A stretch of 64,000 nucleotides of DNA from Acidobacteriota bacterium (GTDB taxonomy: Bacteria; Acidobacteriota; Thermoanaerobaculia; Gp7-AA8). The DNA lies in assembly GCA_003223645.1 (NCBI GenBank), contig QHVT01000003.1:248001-312000 (forward strand), written 5' to 3'. The notes beneath the pieces were generated by a model. It was given only the letters and a program-made list of their open reading frames with translations. It was not told the DNA's origin and ran no database searches. A program made the position numbers and the translations under genes. Position 1 is the stretch's first letter. Every line of letters begins with the position of its first letter. Positions 29,874 to 34,509 of this stretch are shown piece by piece.

Positions 29874-32138
29874 ATGGCAACGCTTCCGAGAGACCAGGAC
29901 GTACTGATCGACGCGTGGGGGCCGCACCTCAATCGGATGGAGGGGCTGCGCGTCGACACCGGTGCGGAGCCGGACAAGATCGTTCCGACGCACTGCTGCT
30001 TTTGCGGGCAGCAGTGCGGCATCAATCTCAAAGTCAAAGACAACCTCGTCATCGGCTTCGAGCCGCGGTACGACTTTCCGTTCAACAAGGGCATGCTCTG
30101 TCCGAAGGGCGTGAAGCGCTACCTGCAGGGCGGACATCCCGATCGCCTGACGACGGCGTTGCAGCGCGATCCGGATTCGGAGCGCGGATTCTCGCCGATG
30201 GCGTACGACGCGGCCATCGCGCGCGTGGCGTCGGAGATCGAGCGCATTCAGTCAATGTATGGACCCGATGCATTCGGCGTTCTCTCCGGCGCGAGCCTGA
30301 CGACGGAGAAGGCGTATCTCATGGGCAAGTTCGCCCGTGTCTGCCTGAAGACGAAATACATCGACTACAACGGCCGGCTCTGCATGGTCAGCGCAGGTGC
30401 GGCGAACAAGAAGGCGTTCGGCATCGATCGCAGCGCGAATCCGTGGGACGACATTCTCAACGCGGAGGTCGTGCTCGTCGCCGGATCGAACACCGCCGAA
30501 TGCTCGCCGATCACGACGAACTACATATGGCAGGCGCGCGAGAACGGCGGGAAGTTGATCGTCGTCGATCCGCGCATCACGCCGATCGCGCGTACGGCGG
30601 ACATCTTTCTGCCGGTGAAGCCGGGGCGCGACGTTGTGCTCTTCAACGGCATCCTGCAGTTGATGATCGAGAACGACTGGATCGATCACGACTTCATCGA
30701 ACAGCACACCGTCGGGTTCGACGCCGTCGCGGAACACGTGCAGCAGTGGACGCCGAAGCGCACATCCGAAGTGACCGGAATCGCGGAGAAGTCGATCCGC
30801 GCCGCCGCGGAGTTGTGGGGTACGGCGAAGACGAGCTTTCTCATGCACGCGCGCGGCATCGAGCACCACTCGCACGGCGTCGAGAATTGCCTCTCGACGA
30901 TCAACATCGTGCTCGCCTCCGGCCGCATCGGAAAGCCGTGCTGTGCGTACGGAACGGTCGTCGGTCAGGGCAACGGACAGGGCGGCCGCGAGCACGGACA
31001 GAAAGCCGACCAGCTTCCCGGCTGGCGCGACATCATGAATCCCGCGCATCGCGAATACATTGCCGGCGTGTGGGGCGTGTGGCCGGAGGAGCTCCCCGAG
31101 GCGGGTGTTGATTGCTACGAGATGATGCGGAAGATCGATGCGGGCGAGATCAAAGGCCTGCTGTCGATCTGCTTCAATCCGAAAGTCTCGCTGCCCGACA
31201 ATGCATTCGTCACGCGCGCGCTGGAGAAGCTCGAGTTCTTCACGGTGATCGATTTCTTTCTGAGCGAGACCGCGCAACACGCGGACGTCGTTCTTCCCGG
31301 ATCGCTGCACGAAGAAGACGAAGGCGTGGTGTGCCAGGTGGAAGGCCGCGTCATCAAGATCAACAAGGCCGTCGATCCGCCCGGCGACGCGACGCAGGAT
31401 TGGCGCGTGATTCAGGACATTGCGCACGCGCTGAAACGGCCACACGGCTTCACGTTCGACAGCCCGCGCGCAATTTTCGACGAGCTGCGCGTCGCGTCGA
31501 AGGGCGGCGTCGCCGATTACTTCGGCATCACGTACGAGAAGATCGAGGCGAACAACGGCGTCTTCTGGCCGTGTCCGTCGGAAGATCATCCGGGCACGCC
31601 GCGACTGTTCGAAGCGGGATCGTGGAATCCGGTCGCGAACGGCGCGGGGCCGTTTTATTTTCCCGACGGCAAGGCGCGCTTCAACGTCGCCGCGTACCGG
31701 CCGCCGGCCGAAGACGTCGACGACGAATACCCGGTCATTCTCACGACCGGCCGCGTCGTCAGCCAGTTCCTGTCCGGCACGCAGACGCGGCGCATTGGTC
31801 CACTCGTGGACCAATATCCCGAGCCGCTCGTCGAGATTCATCCGCGGCTTGCGCAGAAACTCGGGATCGCGGATGGAGACTGGACGATCGTGGAGTCGCG
31901 GCGCGGCAACATCACGCTGCGCGCGCAGGTCGTGACGACGATTCGTCCGGACACGGTGTTCATTCCGTATCACTGGGCCGGCCGGAAGGCTGCGAATCAG
32001 CTCACGATCGCGGCGCAGGATCCGGTGTCGAAGATCCCCGAGTACAAAGTGTGCGCGGTGCGAGTCTCTCGTGTAGCACAGGCTTTCCAGCCTGTGCCCG
32101 GAGGAGCGCAGGCTGGAAAGCCTGCGCCACACCGATGA
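29874..32138 (+). CDS. Molybdopterin oxidoreductase, NasA/FdhA-like catalytic subunit
   Basis: A 754-residue cytoplasmic-type enzyme with no Tat signal. Near the N-terminus is a [4Fe-4S] site ([13 protein letters not shown] at about 40-53, last Cys in GMLCPKG near 78). The probable molybdenum-ligand cysteine is in [10 protein letters not shown] near 170. [14 protein letters not shown] and the C-terminal [17 protein letters not shown] block are molybdopterin-binding segments. It most resembles assimilatory nitrate reductase / formate dehydrogenase relatives. The operon adds a membrane cytochrome b, a four-cluster ferredoxin, a Rieske protein and a TDT transporter. The substrate (nitrate, formate or other) is not determinable here. 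The last ~22 residues are encoded by a palindromic repeat, and the next gene's ATG overlaps the stop. Confidence 0.85.
32071..32132. repeat. Palindromic repeat, full copy, coding the molybdoenzyme tail
   Basis: GTGTAGCACAGGCTTTCCAG ... GCAGGCTGGAAAGCCTGC GCCACAC. Translated as VAQAFQPV ... [10 protein letters not shown]. It ends two bases before the start codon of the ferredoxin gene, so it also lies in that gene's ribosome-binding region. Confidence 0.9.
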
Positions 32139-32743
32139 ATCTCGAGTTCTTCGTCGATCCGAATCGCTGCATCGGCTGCCAGTCGTGCGTGGCCGCGTGC
32201 AGCGAATGCGACACGCATCGCGGGCACTCGATGATTCAGCTGCAGTACGTCGATCGTCCGATCTCCGTGCAGACCGTTCCCGTCATCTGCATGCACTGCG
32301 ACTCGCCGACGTGCGCGGAAGTTTGTCCCGCCGACGCGATCAAGCGCACCGGTGATGGAGTGGTGCAGACCGCGCGCAAGCCGCGCTGCATCGCCTGCAA
32401 CAACTGCGTGCTGGCCTGTCCGTTCGGCGTGCCGAAGATGCAGACCGAGTTCAATCTGATGATGAAGTGCGACATGTGCTACGACCGCACGTCGGTCGGC
32501 CTCAAGCCGATGTGCGCGAGCGTCTGTCCCTCCGGCGCGCTCTACTTCGGCACGCGCGAGGAGATCGAGCAGCTGCGGCCGCGCTCCGCGCCTGTCAACA
32601 CGTTCCGGTTCGGCGATCAGACGATCACCACGAAGGTGCAGATGATGGTTCCCCGCGACGGCGGCGTACAGCACGTCGACGTGCTTTCCGCGATGAGCGA
32701 GGAACCGGTGGCGAGGATGGATGTGTTCGATGAAACCGCCTGA
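32135..32743 (+). CDS. Four-cluster ferredoxin subunit (NrfC/DmsB-like)
   Basis: A 202-residue protein with four [4Fe-4S] cysteine sets: [46 protein letters not shown] and a fourth split set starting CDMCYDRTS and ending CASVCPSGA. No signal peptide is present, consistent with the cytoplasmic molybdoenzyme. Its ATG overlaps the molybdoenzyme stop (ATGA), and it overlaps the following Rieske gene by 14 bases. It should wire electrons between the membrane subunit and the molybdenum site. Family assignment is firm and the physiological reaction follows the partner. Confidence 0.9.
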
Positions 32744-33269
32744 CCAGCTCTCCGAGCCGCCCGACGGCCGCCCGTATCACGACCAGCCGCAGTGGCGGAA
32801 CGACTTTCCGATCGACTGGCCGCAGGACGAGCTCGTGGCGCGTCGCGACTTCACGAAGTTTCTCGTCCTCACCAGCTTCGCGTTCGCCGTCGGACAGCTG
32901 TGGATCGTGTTCGAGAACTTCTTCCGCAAACGCAAGGGACAGTTGCCGGTGATGCGCATCGCGCGCGCCGATGCGATTCCCGTCGGCGGCTCGCTGGTCT
33001 TCGAATATCCGGCCGCGCACGACATCTGTCTCGTCGTACGCACCGGCCCGCAGCATTACGTCGCGTTCAATCAGAAATGCACGCACCTCAGTTGCGCGGT
33101 CGTGCCCGACGTTGCGCGCGGTCGCTTCCATTGCCCGTGTCACAACGGTTCGTTCGAGCTCGAGACAGGCGTTCCGGTCGCCGGTCCACCGCGACGTCCG
33201 CTCGAGCGCATCCTGCTCGAGATCCGCAACGGCGATCTCTACGCGATCGGCCGTGAGGTGCGCGCATGA
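32730..33269 (+). CDS. Second Rieske [2Fe-2S] protein, in the molybdoenzyme operon
   Basis: A 179-residue protein. One membrane anchor near residues 45-65 ([19 protein letters not shown]) is followed by a Rieske domain with CTHLSC near 120 and CPCHNGSFE near 138, and GPPRRPL. I start at 32730 (MKPPDQLS); an ATG nine bases earlier is possible. It overlaps both neighbours in the operon (14 and 4 bases). It is not paired with a cytochrome b of bc type, unlike the Rieske gene at 25696. It may therefore carry electrons between the quinone pool and the molybdoenzyme complex, or to a periplasmic acceptor. This pairing is uncommon. Confidence 0.88.
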
Positions 33270-33490
33270 GGCGGGCGTTCTCGCGGCAGCAGAAGATGAC
33301 GATCGTGTTCGGCATCCTCTCGATCGTCATCGTGATGGTCGTGCTGCAGCTCTGGCTTCTGACGGCGACGATGAACGCATTTCTCGCGGGACAGGAGCGC
33401 GTGATCGTTCCCGCCGCGATCGCAAGCTTCATCTGCTTCGCGCTGAACTTCGGCCTGCTCACGTACGTCTATCGGATGGAGCGGCGTTGA
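33266..33490 (+). CDS. Small two-helix membrane protein (DUF6755-like)
   Basis: A 74-residue protein with two membrane helices ([20 protein letters not shown] and [19 protein letters not shown]) and a short charged end. Overlaps the Rieske gene by four bases (ATGA), and its own stop contains the TTG start of the transporter. I believe it belongs to the DUF6755 group seen in similar operons; the family name is from memory. It is probably a structural accessory of the membrane complex. Confidence 0.7.
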
Positions 33491-34509
33491 TTCGCACGCT
33501 GCATCCCGCATATTTCGCGCTGGTGATGGCGACCGGCATCGTGTCCATCGCCGCGCAGCTGCTGGGCATTCCGATCGTGCCGCAGGTGCTCCTCGGCATC
33601 AACGGCGTCGCGTTCATCGTGCTGTGGGCGTTGACGATCATCCGCATCGTTCGCTATCCGAAAGACGTGCTCGCGGATGTGAGCGATCATCAGCGCGGCG
33701 TCGGCTTCTTCACCACCGTCGCCGGAACGAGCGTCCTCGGATCGCAGCTCGTCATCGTGGCGAAGCTGGAGTCCGTCGCGCTCGCGTTCTGGATGGCGAC
33801 GCTCATCCTCTGGCTCGTGCTCGTGTACGCCGTCTTCACCGCGCTGACGGTGAAGGAGACGAAGCCGCCGCTCGATCAGGGCATCAACGGCGGCTGGCTC
33901 GTTGCGGTCGTGGCGACGCAGTCGGTGTCGACGCTTGCGTCGATCCTCGCGCCGTCAACGACATACGCGGAGTTGCTGCTCTTCGTCAGCCTGACGTTCT
34001 GGCTCGCCGGCGGCATGCTCTACATCTGGCTCATCTCCCTCATCTTCTATCGCTACACGTTCTTCCGCTTCGCGCCGTCCGACCTCATGCCGCCGTACTG
34101 GATCAACATGGGAGCGATGGCGATCTCCACGCTCGCCGGAACGCTGCTCATCGCCAGCGCCAAATCGTCTCCGCTCCTCACGCAGCTCCACCCCTTCCTC
34201 CTCGGCCTGACGATTCTCTTCTGGGCGACCGCGACGTGGTGGATCCCGATGCTGGTGATCCTCGGATTCTGGCGTCACGTCGCGAAGCGATTCCCGCTCA
34301 CCTACAGCCCGCTCTATTGGGGCGCGGTCTTCCCGCTCGGGATGTACACCGTCTGCACGTTCCGCCTCGCCAACGTCGCGGGCATTCCGCTGTTGCACAC
34401 CGTGCCGCGCGTATTCGTGTACATCGCGCTGGCGGCGTGGCTGGTGACGTTCGTGGGACTGATTCGCAGTCTGTTCATTCGCGACCGCGGTGTGGCGCAG
34501 GCTTTCTAG
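33487..34509 (+). CDS. TDT/SLAC1-family transporter (tellurite-resistance/dicarboxylate type)
   Basis: A 340-residue protein with ten membrane helices. The N-terminus [20 protein letters not shown] is diagnostic of the TehA/SLAC1/TDT family, as are [18 protein letters not shown] and [20 protein letters not shown]. The start is the TTG at 33487, overlapping the previous stop (TTGA), because it gives the canonical first helix. Family members conduct anions such as nitrate, chloride, sulfite or dicarboxylates. As the last gene of the molybdoenzyme operon it may move that enzyme's substrate or product. The C-terminus ends GVAQAF, read from a palindromic repeat arm whose core carries a TTC-TAG change that supplies the stop. 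Confidence 0.82.

Follow-up and report, generated by a model that had tools for sequence, protein, structure and literature searches.

Six genes in one row on the forward strand (28765-34509) of a 64,000-nucleotide stretch from an Acidobacteriota bacterium (GCA_003223645.1, contig QHVT01000003.1, positions 248,001-312,000; the whole stretch is hereafter the window) probably encode a quinol-linked, membrane-bound dissimilatory nitrate reductase that faces the cytoplasm and combines a Nas-type catalytic subunit with an exported Rieske protein. The row comprises a NarI-like membrane cytochrome b whose C-terminal domain contains Cys (28765-29865; identified by structure model and conserved His), a Nas/NasC-type catalytic subunit of the molybdenum (Mo) bis-molybdopterin guanine dinucleotide/4Fe-4S class (29874-32138; PF00384, PF01568, PF04879 and a NasC match), a NarH/DmsB-like FeS subunit for four 4Fe-4S clusters (32135-32743; PF13247), a Rieske [2Fe-2S] protein with a twin-arginine signal anchor (RRDFTKFLV) and one membrane helix (32721-33269; PF00355), a 74-residue DUF6755 protein with two membrane helices predicted from hydropathy (33266-33490; PF20540, 111.6 bits), and a TDT/SLAC1-family anion transporter with a probable TTG start at 33487 (33487-34509; PF03595, 175.7 bits). 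A gap of 8 nt separates the NarI-like and Mo genes, and from the Mo subunit through TDT the genes overlap successively by 4, 23, 4 and 4 nt. An initial annotation of the window had described the last five genes as an overlapping operon behind a NarI-like subunit, and this description was correct, coordinates included. That the core of the complex is a nitrate reductase is highly probable.

To investigate the conservation of this gene set, DUF6755 was searched in 297 genomes of the phylum and 14 control genomes (E <= 0.001). Matches were found in 39 of the 297 (28 above the curated cut-off) and in none of the 14 controls. Twenty of the 39 loci were examined together with as much as 10 kb of flanking sequence, and 19 show the order NarI, Mo, FeS, Rieske; the twentieth, L041, runs to a contig edge. 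When species genomes were scanned using only the catalytic subunit as query (20-row alignment led by L056), at least 583 relatives were returned, of which the best 80 were kept. Together with the 20 DUF6755 loci and two Deinococcus plasmid loci these bring the total to 102 loci, of which 101 include a catalytic subunit. The NarI-like gene lies within 3 kb on the same strand in 99/101, the FeS gene within 3 kb in 95/101 and within 5 kb in 98/101, and the Rieske gene is present in 91/101. DUF6755 accompanies 76/101 (within 5 kb), NarK 45/101 (within 5 kb, same strand) and TDT 17/101 (within 3 kb, same strand). The 80 loci picked by the catalytic subunit alone hold all the misses of the core (NarI-like in 78, FeS in 77, Rieske in 70), and nine of the ten Rieske-less loci end at a contig edge where the Rieske gene is expected; L131 is either truly exceptional or rearranged.

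By record title the loci span 12 phyla plus Deinococcota, although metagenomic bins can hold stray contigs. Isolates with the locus include Pyrinomonas methylaliphatogenes, Chthoniobacter flavus, Anaeromyxobacter oryzae, Thermogemmatispora aurantia and members of Chitinophaga, Flavobacterium and Bacillus. Four Armatimonadota loci (L079, L081, L082, L100) place FeS and Rieske before NarI and Mo, and the catalytic subunits of L056 (genome G141, same phylum as the window) and L067 are identical. The initial annotation had allowed for a gene order conserved nowhere else; the order is in fact widespread. What is kept across phyla is a core of four genes (NarI, Mo, FeS, Rieske), and a strict six-gene operon was rejected on the frequencies of DUF6755 and TDT.

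The catalytic subunit (754 residues) matches the NCBIfam family NasC over its full length (NF047855; 798 bits, under the cut-off of 1100). Its scores for the formate dehydrogenase alpha subunit (TIGR01591, 581 bits, cut-off 666), AioA (TIGR02693, 127 bits, cut-off 359) and NarG (TIGR01580, 43.6 bits, cut-off 1084) also fall under their cut-offs. The motifs include DYNGRLCM, and the Nas-type active-site residues are present. A Cys-Met pair occurs in 100 of the 101 catalytic subunits and Cys-His in 0/101, L112 not matching the Cys-Met pattern. The same Cys-Met pair is seen in E. coli NapA and in five members of a comparison set of seven Nas-type enzymes, the NasA of D. grandis and a Curtobacterium protein giving no match to that pattern. 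Where formate dehydrogenases have RGQNNVQG, 94/101 subunits carry GQGNGQG..RE (GQGNGQGxREx G), which is found in all four NasC sequences encoded beside nirB. The closest PDB sequence relatives are formate dehydrogenases. Two such enzymes in one comparison, and two of three in a second, have Cys/Sec-His with RGQNNVQG or a similar motif, and a Pantoea sequence matched neither pattern. Formate dehydrogenase was rejected on these active-site residues, and formate, a candidate substrate in the initial annotation, is now unlikely.

In a quick tree of 113 rows, the 101 loci and the window fall on one side of a branch with a Shimodaira-Hasegawa-like approximate likelihood ratio (SH-aLRT) support of 95; a more careful tree of 39 rows supports a single Rieske-linked clade at 91/88. 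Both trees place nirB-linked NasC as the nearest outgroup of this clade, with long outgroup branches (a program warning) that leave the root unsure. Phylogeny and Mo ligands assign the subunit to a separate Nas-type clade with Cys-Met, not to a clade with known partners, in keeping with the suspicion of an uncharacterised complex in the initial annotation. Judged by sequence, the subunit is of nitrate-reductase type, though like those that assimilate nitrate.

The NarI-like subunit has no Pfam match, no match among PDB sequences and, with Foldseek alone, no NarI match at E <= 0.001 for its model. That model (predicted local distance difference test score 94.3) aligns by VIA to E. coli NarI (1q16_C) over 180 residues with Z 11.6 and a root-mean-square deviation of 4.8, and to mycobacterial EtfD with Z 11.9; nine NarI/EtfD rows score 10.8-11.9 and the next unrelated row 6.6, against a VIA warning that helical bundles reach Z ~13 by arrangement alone. 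With this caveat, the predicted fold is of NarI type. His118 is conserved in 99 of 100 rows and His247 and His265 in 100/100, the last two being 18 residues apart, which equals the distance between two haem ligands of NarI. A Deinococcus homologue gives a weak PF02665 match (22.2 bits, cut-off 22.9), and RefSeq calls the gene preceding the Deinococcus Mo subunit, which is the NarI-like gene, an "MFS transporter". In a structure comparison, residues 286-334 of the NarI-like subunit resemble part of E. coli formate hydrogenlyase (chain F, residues 113-165).

The sixteen cluster cysteines of the FeS subunit, equivalent to four 4Fe-4S clusters, are kept in 99-100% of 97 rows. In the Rieske protein the Arg-Arg pair (R41, R42) is present in 92/92 rows and the cluster-ligand motifs in 91/92. 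Its model shows a sole membrane helix (41-70) with the Arg-Arg pair at the helix start, consistent with export by the twin-arginine translocation (Tat) pathway. Because this invariant Tat mark begins the only membrane helix, the Rieske domain most likely lies outside the membrane and the catalytic site inside. The best PDB structure matches of the Rieske protein are to arsenite oxidase AioB (Foldseek rank 1, E 2.3e-8), and its best NCBIfam match is TIGR02694 (arsenite_ox_S; 39.9 bits, under the cut-off of 95.65). In the DUF6755 protein, so named by RefSeq in the Deinococcus homologues, Gln28 is conserved in all 77 rows and Ser54 in 99%.

The transporters provide further evidence on substrate and topology. 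In eight loci (L038, L039, L052, L053, L054, L100, L128, L134) NarK and the NarI-like subunit share one open frame from stop to stop; the NarK of L038 scores 215 bits against TIGR00886 (cut-off 311.7). A NarK beside the NarI-like subunit argues for a cytoplasmic active site, since a nitrate importer is needed only then. This fusion and the active-site residues strongly indicate nitrate as the substrate. The TDT protein of the window (97.9 bits against TIGR00816, under the cut-off of 237; no match among PDB sequences) appears to occupy the same niche. Among the 68 of 101 loci with long enough flanks, 39 have NarK only, 14 TDT only, 14 neither and 1 both (Fisher p 3.7e-6). NarK was also sought in the whole genomes of 21 of the 39 DUF6755-positive members: at our own threshold of 150 bits it is found in 0 of 7 genomes whose locus has TDT (highest score 46.7 bits) versus 11 of 14 others (p 0.001). 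Because TDT and NarK nearly exclude each other, TDT is somewhat more likely than not to be a nitrate/nitrite transporter in place of NarK, in line with the earlier suggestion that the transporter may exchange the substrate or product. Such a role for TDT has been put forward before: in the accessible part of PMC12815253, TDT proteins of a Nitrobacter are listed among its nitrite/nitrate transporters. In Holophagaceae-like genomes a TM_HPP membrane protein follows the block (L055:10225-10854, tested there with PF04982; L057:9316-9927), a possible third transporter type where NarK and TDT were not found at the locus.

The nitrogen genes of the genomes favour respiration. In the window genome (96.7% complete) no match was found at E <= 0.001 to PF01077 (NIR_SIR), which was found in 11/14 control genomes, to PF02335 (the NrfA family) or to Cu-NirK, and no NarG above the cut-off; nitrite therefore seems, from gene content, to be an end product that the cell has to export. 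Among the 297 genomes of the phylum, 26/39 DUF6755-positive ones have NrfA (at least 140 bits, a threshold of our own) versus 51/258 others. The association persists by genus (12/22 vs 28/145, p 8.5e-4) and by family (12/15 vs 17/65, p 1.8e-4), and in L043 NrfA (PF02335, 452 bits) directly adjoins the block. NirB above its cut-off is found in 2/39 and 2/258. Because the window genome has no NIR_SIR match and because NrfA, not NirB, accompanies DUF6755 in the phylum, the enzyme is more readily read as respiratory than as assimilatory. Of the earlier proposal of a respiratory or assimilatory complex using nitrogen oxyanions, the substrate class and the respiratory side gain ground, and the assimilatory side does not. 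A close relative from the window's own family, genome G042, gives no DUF6755 match and carries a pair of canonical NarG genes on a single contig, which looks like a replacement of one type of nitrate reductase by the other.

By analogy with NarGHI, to which fold and ligands point, quinol would be oxidised at the NarI-like cytochrome b, and electrons would pass through its haem(s) b and the four 4Fe-4S clusters to the cytoplasmic Nas-type Mo site, reducing nitrate to nitrite. The Tat-exported Rieske protein, held by its one-helix anchor, would lie next to the NarI-like subunit on the outer side of the membrane and exchange single electrons between that quinol-oxidising site and the high-potential, cytochrome c side. 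This one-electron exchange with the cytochrome c pool on the positive (P) side is only tentatively assigned, the alternatives being a relay, an entry port for electrons from cytochrome c, or bifurcation. The DUF6755 protein may be a small structural or assembly subunit, and NarK, or TDT in the window genome, would bring nitrate in and nitrite out. A more speculative and rather unlikely extension is that the NarI-fold cytochrome b and the exported Rieske protein form a distinct quinol-oxidising module that splits the two electrons of quinol. Haem b would pass one of them to nitrate and the Rieske protein the other to the cytochrome c pool, so that a single complex would feed nitrate reduction as well as a second acceptor such as NrfA, with TDT proteins as the nitrate/nitrite carriers of such systems.

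Several observations weigh against this interpretation. Besides the helical-bundle caveat, the fourth haem ligand of the NarI-like subunit is not universal (His141 in 73% and His176 in 77%, with neither in 7/100 rows). No genome of the 21 has NarK above the curated cut-off of 311.7 bits, the window genome has no NarK-like match above 46 bits, and 14/68 loci have neither carrier. When phylogeny is controlled, 3-5 of 8 independent pairs show opposite changes of TDT and NarK and 0 change the same way (median p 0.125, not significant). No nitrite reductase was identified in the window genome, where cytochrome D1 matches fall in one 468-residue frame (26.9 and 21.5 bits, 46.9 combined; cut-off 25.5); this partial family match was tentatively taken for a propeller protein, and NirS was rejected on that reading. 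Canonical NarG above the cut-off is present in 10/39 DUF6755-positive genomes, more commonly than in the others (14/258), although 29/39 are without it. Finally, the catalytic subunit is sister to assimilatory NasC, and some members may serve assimilation.

This last point leads to an alternative in which the enzyme is an assimilatory nitrate reductase supplied with electrons by the quinone pool, its nitrite being reduced to ammonium for growth. The nearest outgroup is indeed nirB-linked NasC, and, according to the accessible part of PMC5900883, P. methylaliphatogenes K22 (locus L068) has putative genes for assimilatory nitrate and nitrite reductases. However, no NIR_SIR match (NirA, searched in the window genome only) was found, just 2/39 DUF6755-positive genomes have NirB above the cut-off, and three nirB-linked NasC loci are without an annotated NarI-like or four-cluster subunit (the PLSDB gene tables are incomplete). 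We consider this alternative improbable.

An outward-facing nitrate reductase is about equally improbable. Here the Tat signal of the Rieske protein would export the Mo and FeS subunits as hitch-hikers, much as AioB-borne export carries AioA, and electrons would come from a cytochrome bc complex. Such an arrangement would accommodate the AioB-like fold and TIGR02694 match of the Rieske protein, the catalytic subunit without a signal of its own (no twin-arginine motif was seen on inspection of its N-terminus), and the bc/multihaem module that adjoins the operon in the window. It is opposed by the NarK fused or adjacent to the NarI-like subunit, which would be pointless for a periplasmic site, by a bc module that does not accompany the operon elsewhere, and by a predicted NarI fold and FeS subunit that resemble the cytoplasm-facing NarHI. 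A formate dehydrogenase or reductase of another oxyanion is least probable of all: the top PDB matches, the TIGR01591 score and a TDT family named for tellurite lean that way, but the Cys-Met in place of Cys/Sec-His, the absence of the arginine motif of formate dehydrogenases and the NarK partners do not.

Among known systems, E. coli NarGHI is similar in its NarI-type cytochrome b, four-cluster FeS subunit and cytoplasmic-type Mo subunit, and NarK is present in many loci. The window operon differs in having a Nas-type catalytic subunit instead of NarG, in the added Rieske and DUF6755 proteins, and in the absence of NarJ from its six genes, to which the NarJ survey was confined. Upstream of the operon in L042, positions 15009-19900 hold a NarJ-like chaperone gene (PF02613), then a second Fe-S protein and a large frame that continues beyond the sequence examined. 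AioAB also sets a Rieske protein of similar fold beside a Mo enzyme, although AioA aligns weakly; AioAB is not known to have a NarI-like or four-cluster subunit. Assimilatory NasC/NasA with NirBD shares the catalytic motif and sequence family, and NirD is of Rieske type, whereas the window operon has no adjoining nirB and adds the NarI-like, four-cluster and Tat-anchored Rieske subunits. The haloarchaeal Nar operon, as described in the accessible part of PMC2483277, likewise encodes a Rieske protein (narB) and a cytochrome b (narC) alongside its nitrate reductase (narGH), but its active site lies outside and its catalytic subunit is NarG, in contrast to the NarI-like fold and Nas-type subunit here. 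The available text of Heylen and Keltjens (PMC3475470) notes a different arrangement in a Bacillus, where nasC is linked to both a Rieske protein and a hybrid cluster protein. The initial annotation had held that nitrate enzymes normally have no Rieske partner; the subunit set is unusual, yet the Rieske-type NasG/NirD and haloarchaeal NarB in the accessible parts of these two papers show that such partners exist.

No description of this subunit set was found in a literature search that covered few subscription papers. The parts are known to Pfam and RefSeq (DUF6755, molybdopterin oxidoreductase family, Rieske), and their combination would be a variant of membrane-bound nitrate reductase. If our interpretation is correct, membrane nitrate reductases have a second architecture that is widespread, occurring in about a dozen phyla, and surveys that use narG and napA as marker genes would miss such enzymes or score them as assimilation. 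According to the accessible part of PMC5900883, G. mallensis and strain KBS 96 reduce nitrate without identified dissimilatory nitrate reductases, yet have nasA genes. Their nitrate reduction becomes a testable point, those nasA genes being only candidates for the family. DUF6755 and some TDT proteins also gain a context.

Directly upstream, a bc-type module identified by profile matches runs into the operon block on the forward strand: a Rieske protein (25696-26157), a cytochrome b (26159-27292) and a membrane cytochrome c with 11 CXXCH motifs (27289-28746). This module could be the cytochrome-side partner of the operon's Rieske protein in the window. It was rejected as part of the complex, as homologues of the cytochrome b and multihaem protein, the two module genes searched for, lie elsewhere in relatives: in G254, G029 and G230 their contigs differ from that of the nitrate reductase, and G042, without a DUF6755 match, also has them. 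The bc/multihaem genes were not seen beside the other loci, L041 having weak matches about 8 kb away. Downstream, hydrogenase maturation genes begin at about 6 kb and a [NiFe] hydrogenase (large subunit, NrfD-like, 4Fe-4S and small subunit; 49776-54614, reverse strand) lies 15-20 kb away as a possible electron source. Because of these genes, hydrogen-driven nitrate respiration is plausible. Within the hyp cluster (40742-42956), an enoyl-CoA hydratase gene (41077-41928) stands between an AIRS-domain (HypE-like) gene and hypA.

A Ric/ScdA-like hemerythrin for nitric oxide-stress repair is encoded on the reverse strand (47457-48422, start of the open reading frame uncertain), near a YwiC-like membrane protein (46702-47697). 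Ric homologues occur somewhere in 18/101 loci, as do Crp/Fnr-type regulators (18/101). In L055 a YwiC-like sequence (judged by eye) and an Rrf2 regulator precede the nitrate reductase, and in L049 a DUF2249-hemerythrin protein (14639-15313) is directly upstream of the NarI-like gene. On the strand opposite to the operon (35901-39411), two radical SAM/SPASM proteins, one of them NirJ1-like (554 bits, under the cut-off of 650), flank a NirDL/AsnC protein resembling siroheme decarboxylase, a cluster for alternative haem or haem d1 synthesis.

A promoter scan found 0 candidates against 1.2 expected, and 8 terminator-like elements were found against 6.7 expected. A palindromic repeat family with the core CAGGCTTTCCAGCCTG recurs at gene ends (25487-25518, 29789-29862, 32071-32132, 34488-34519, 38059-38119, 39355-39413 and 41854-41902). 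It is translated as the C-terminal tails of the NarI-like subunit, the Mo subunit and other proteins (e.g. ...AQAFQPV..AGKPAPH), supplying the last ~25 residues of the former and the last ~21 of the Mo subunit, whose tail matched a repeat copy on another contig of the window genome.

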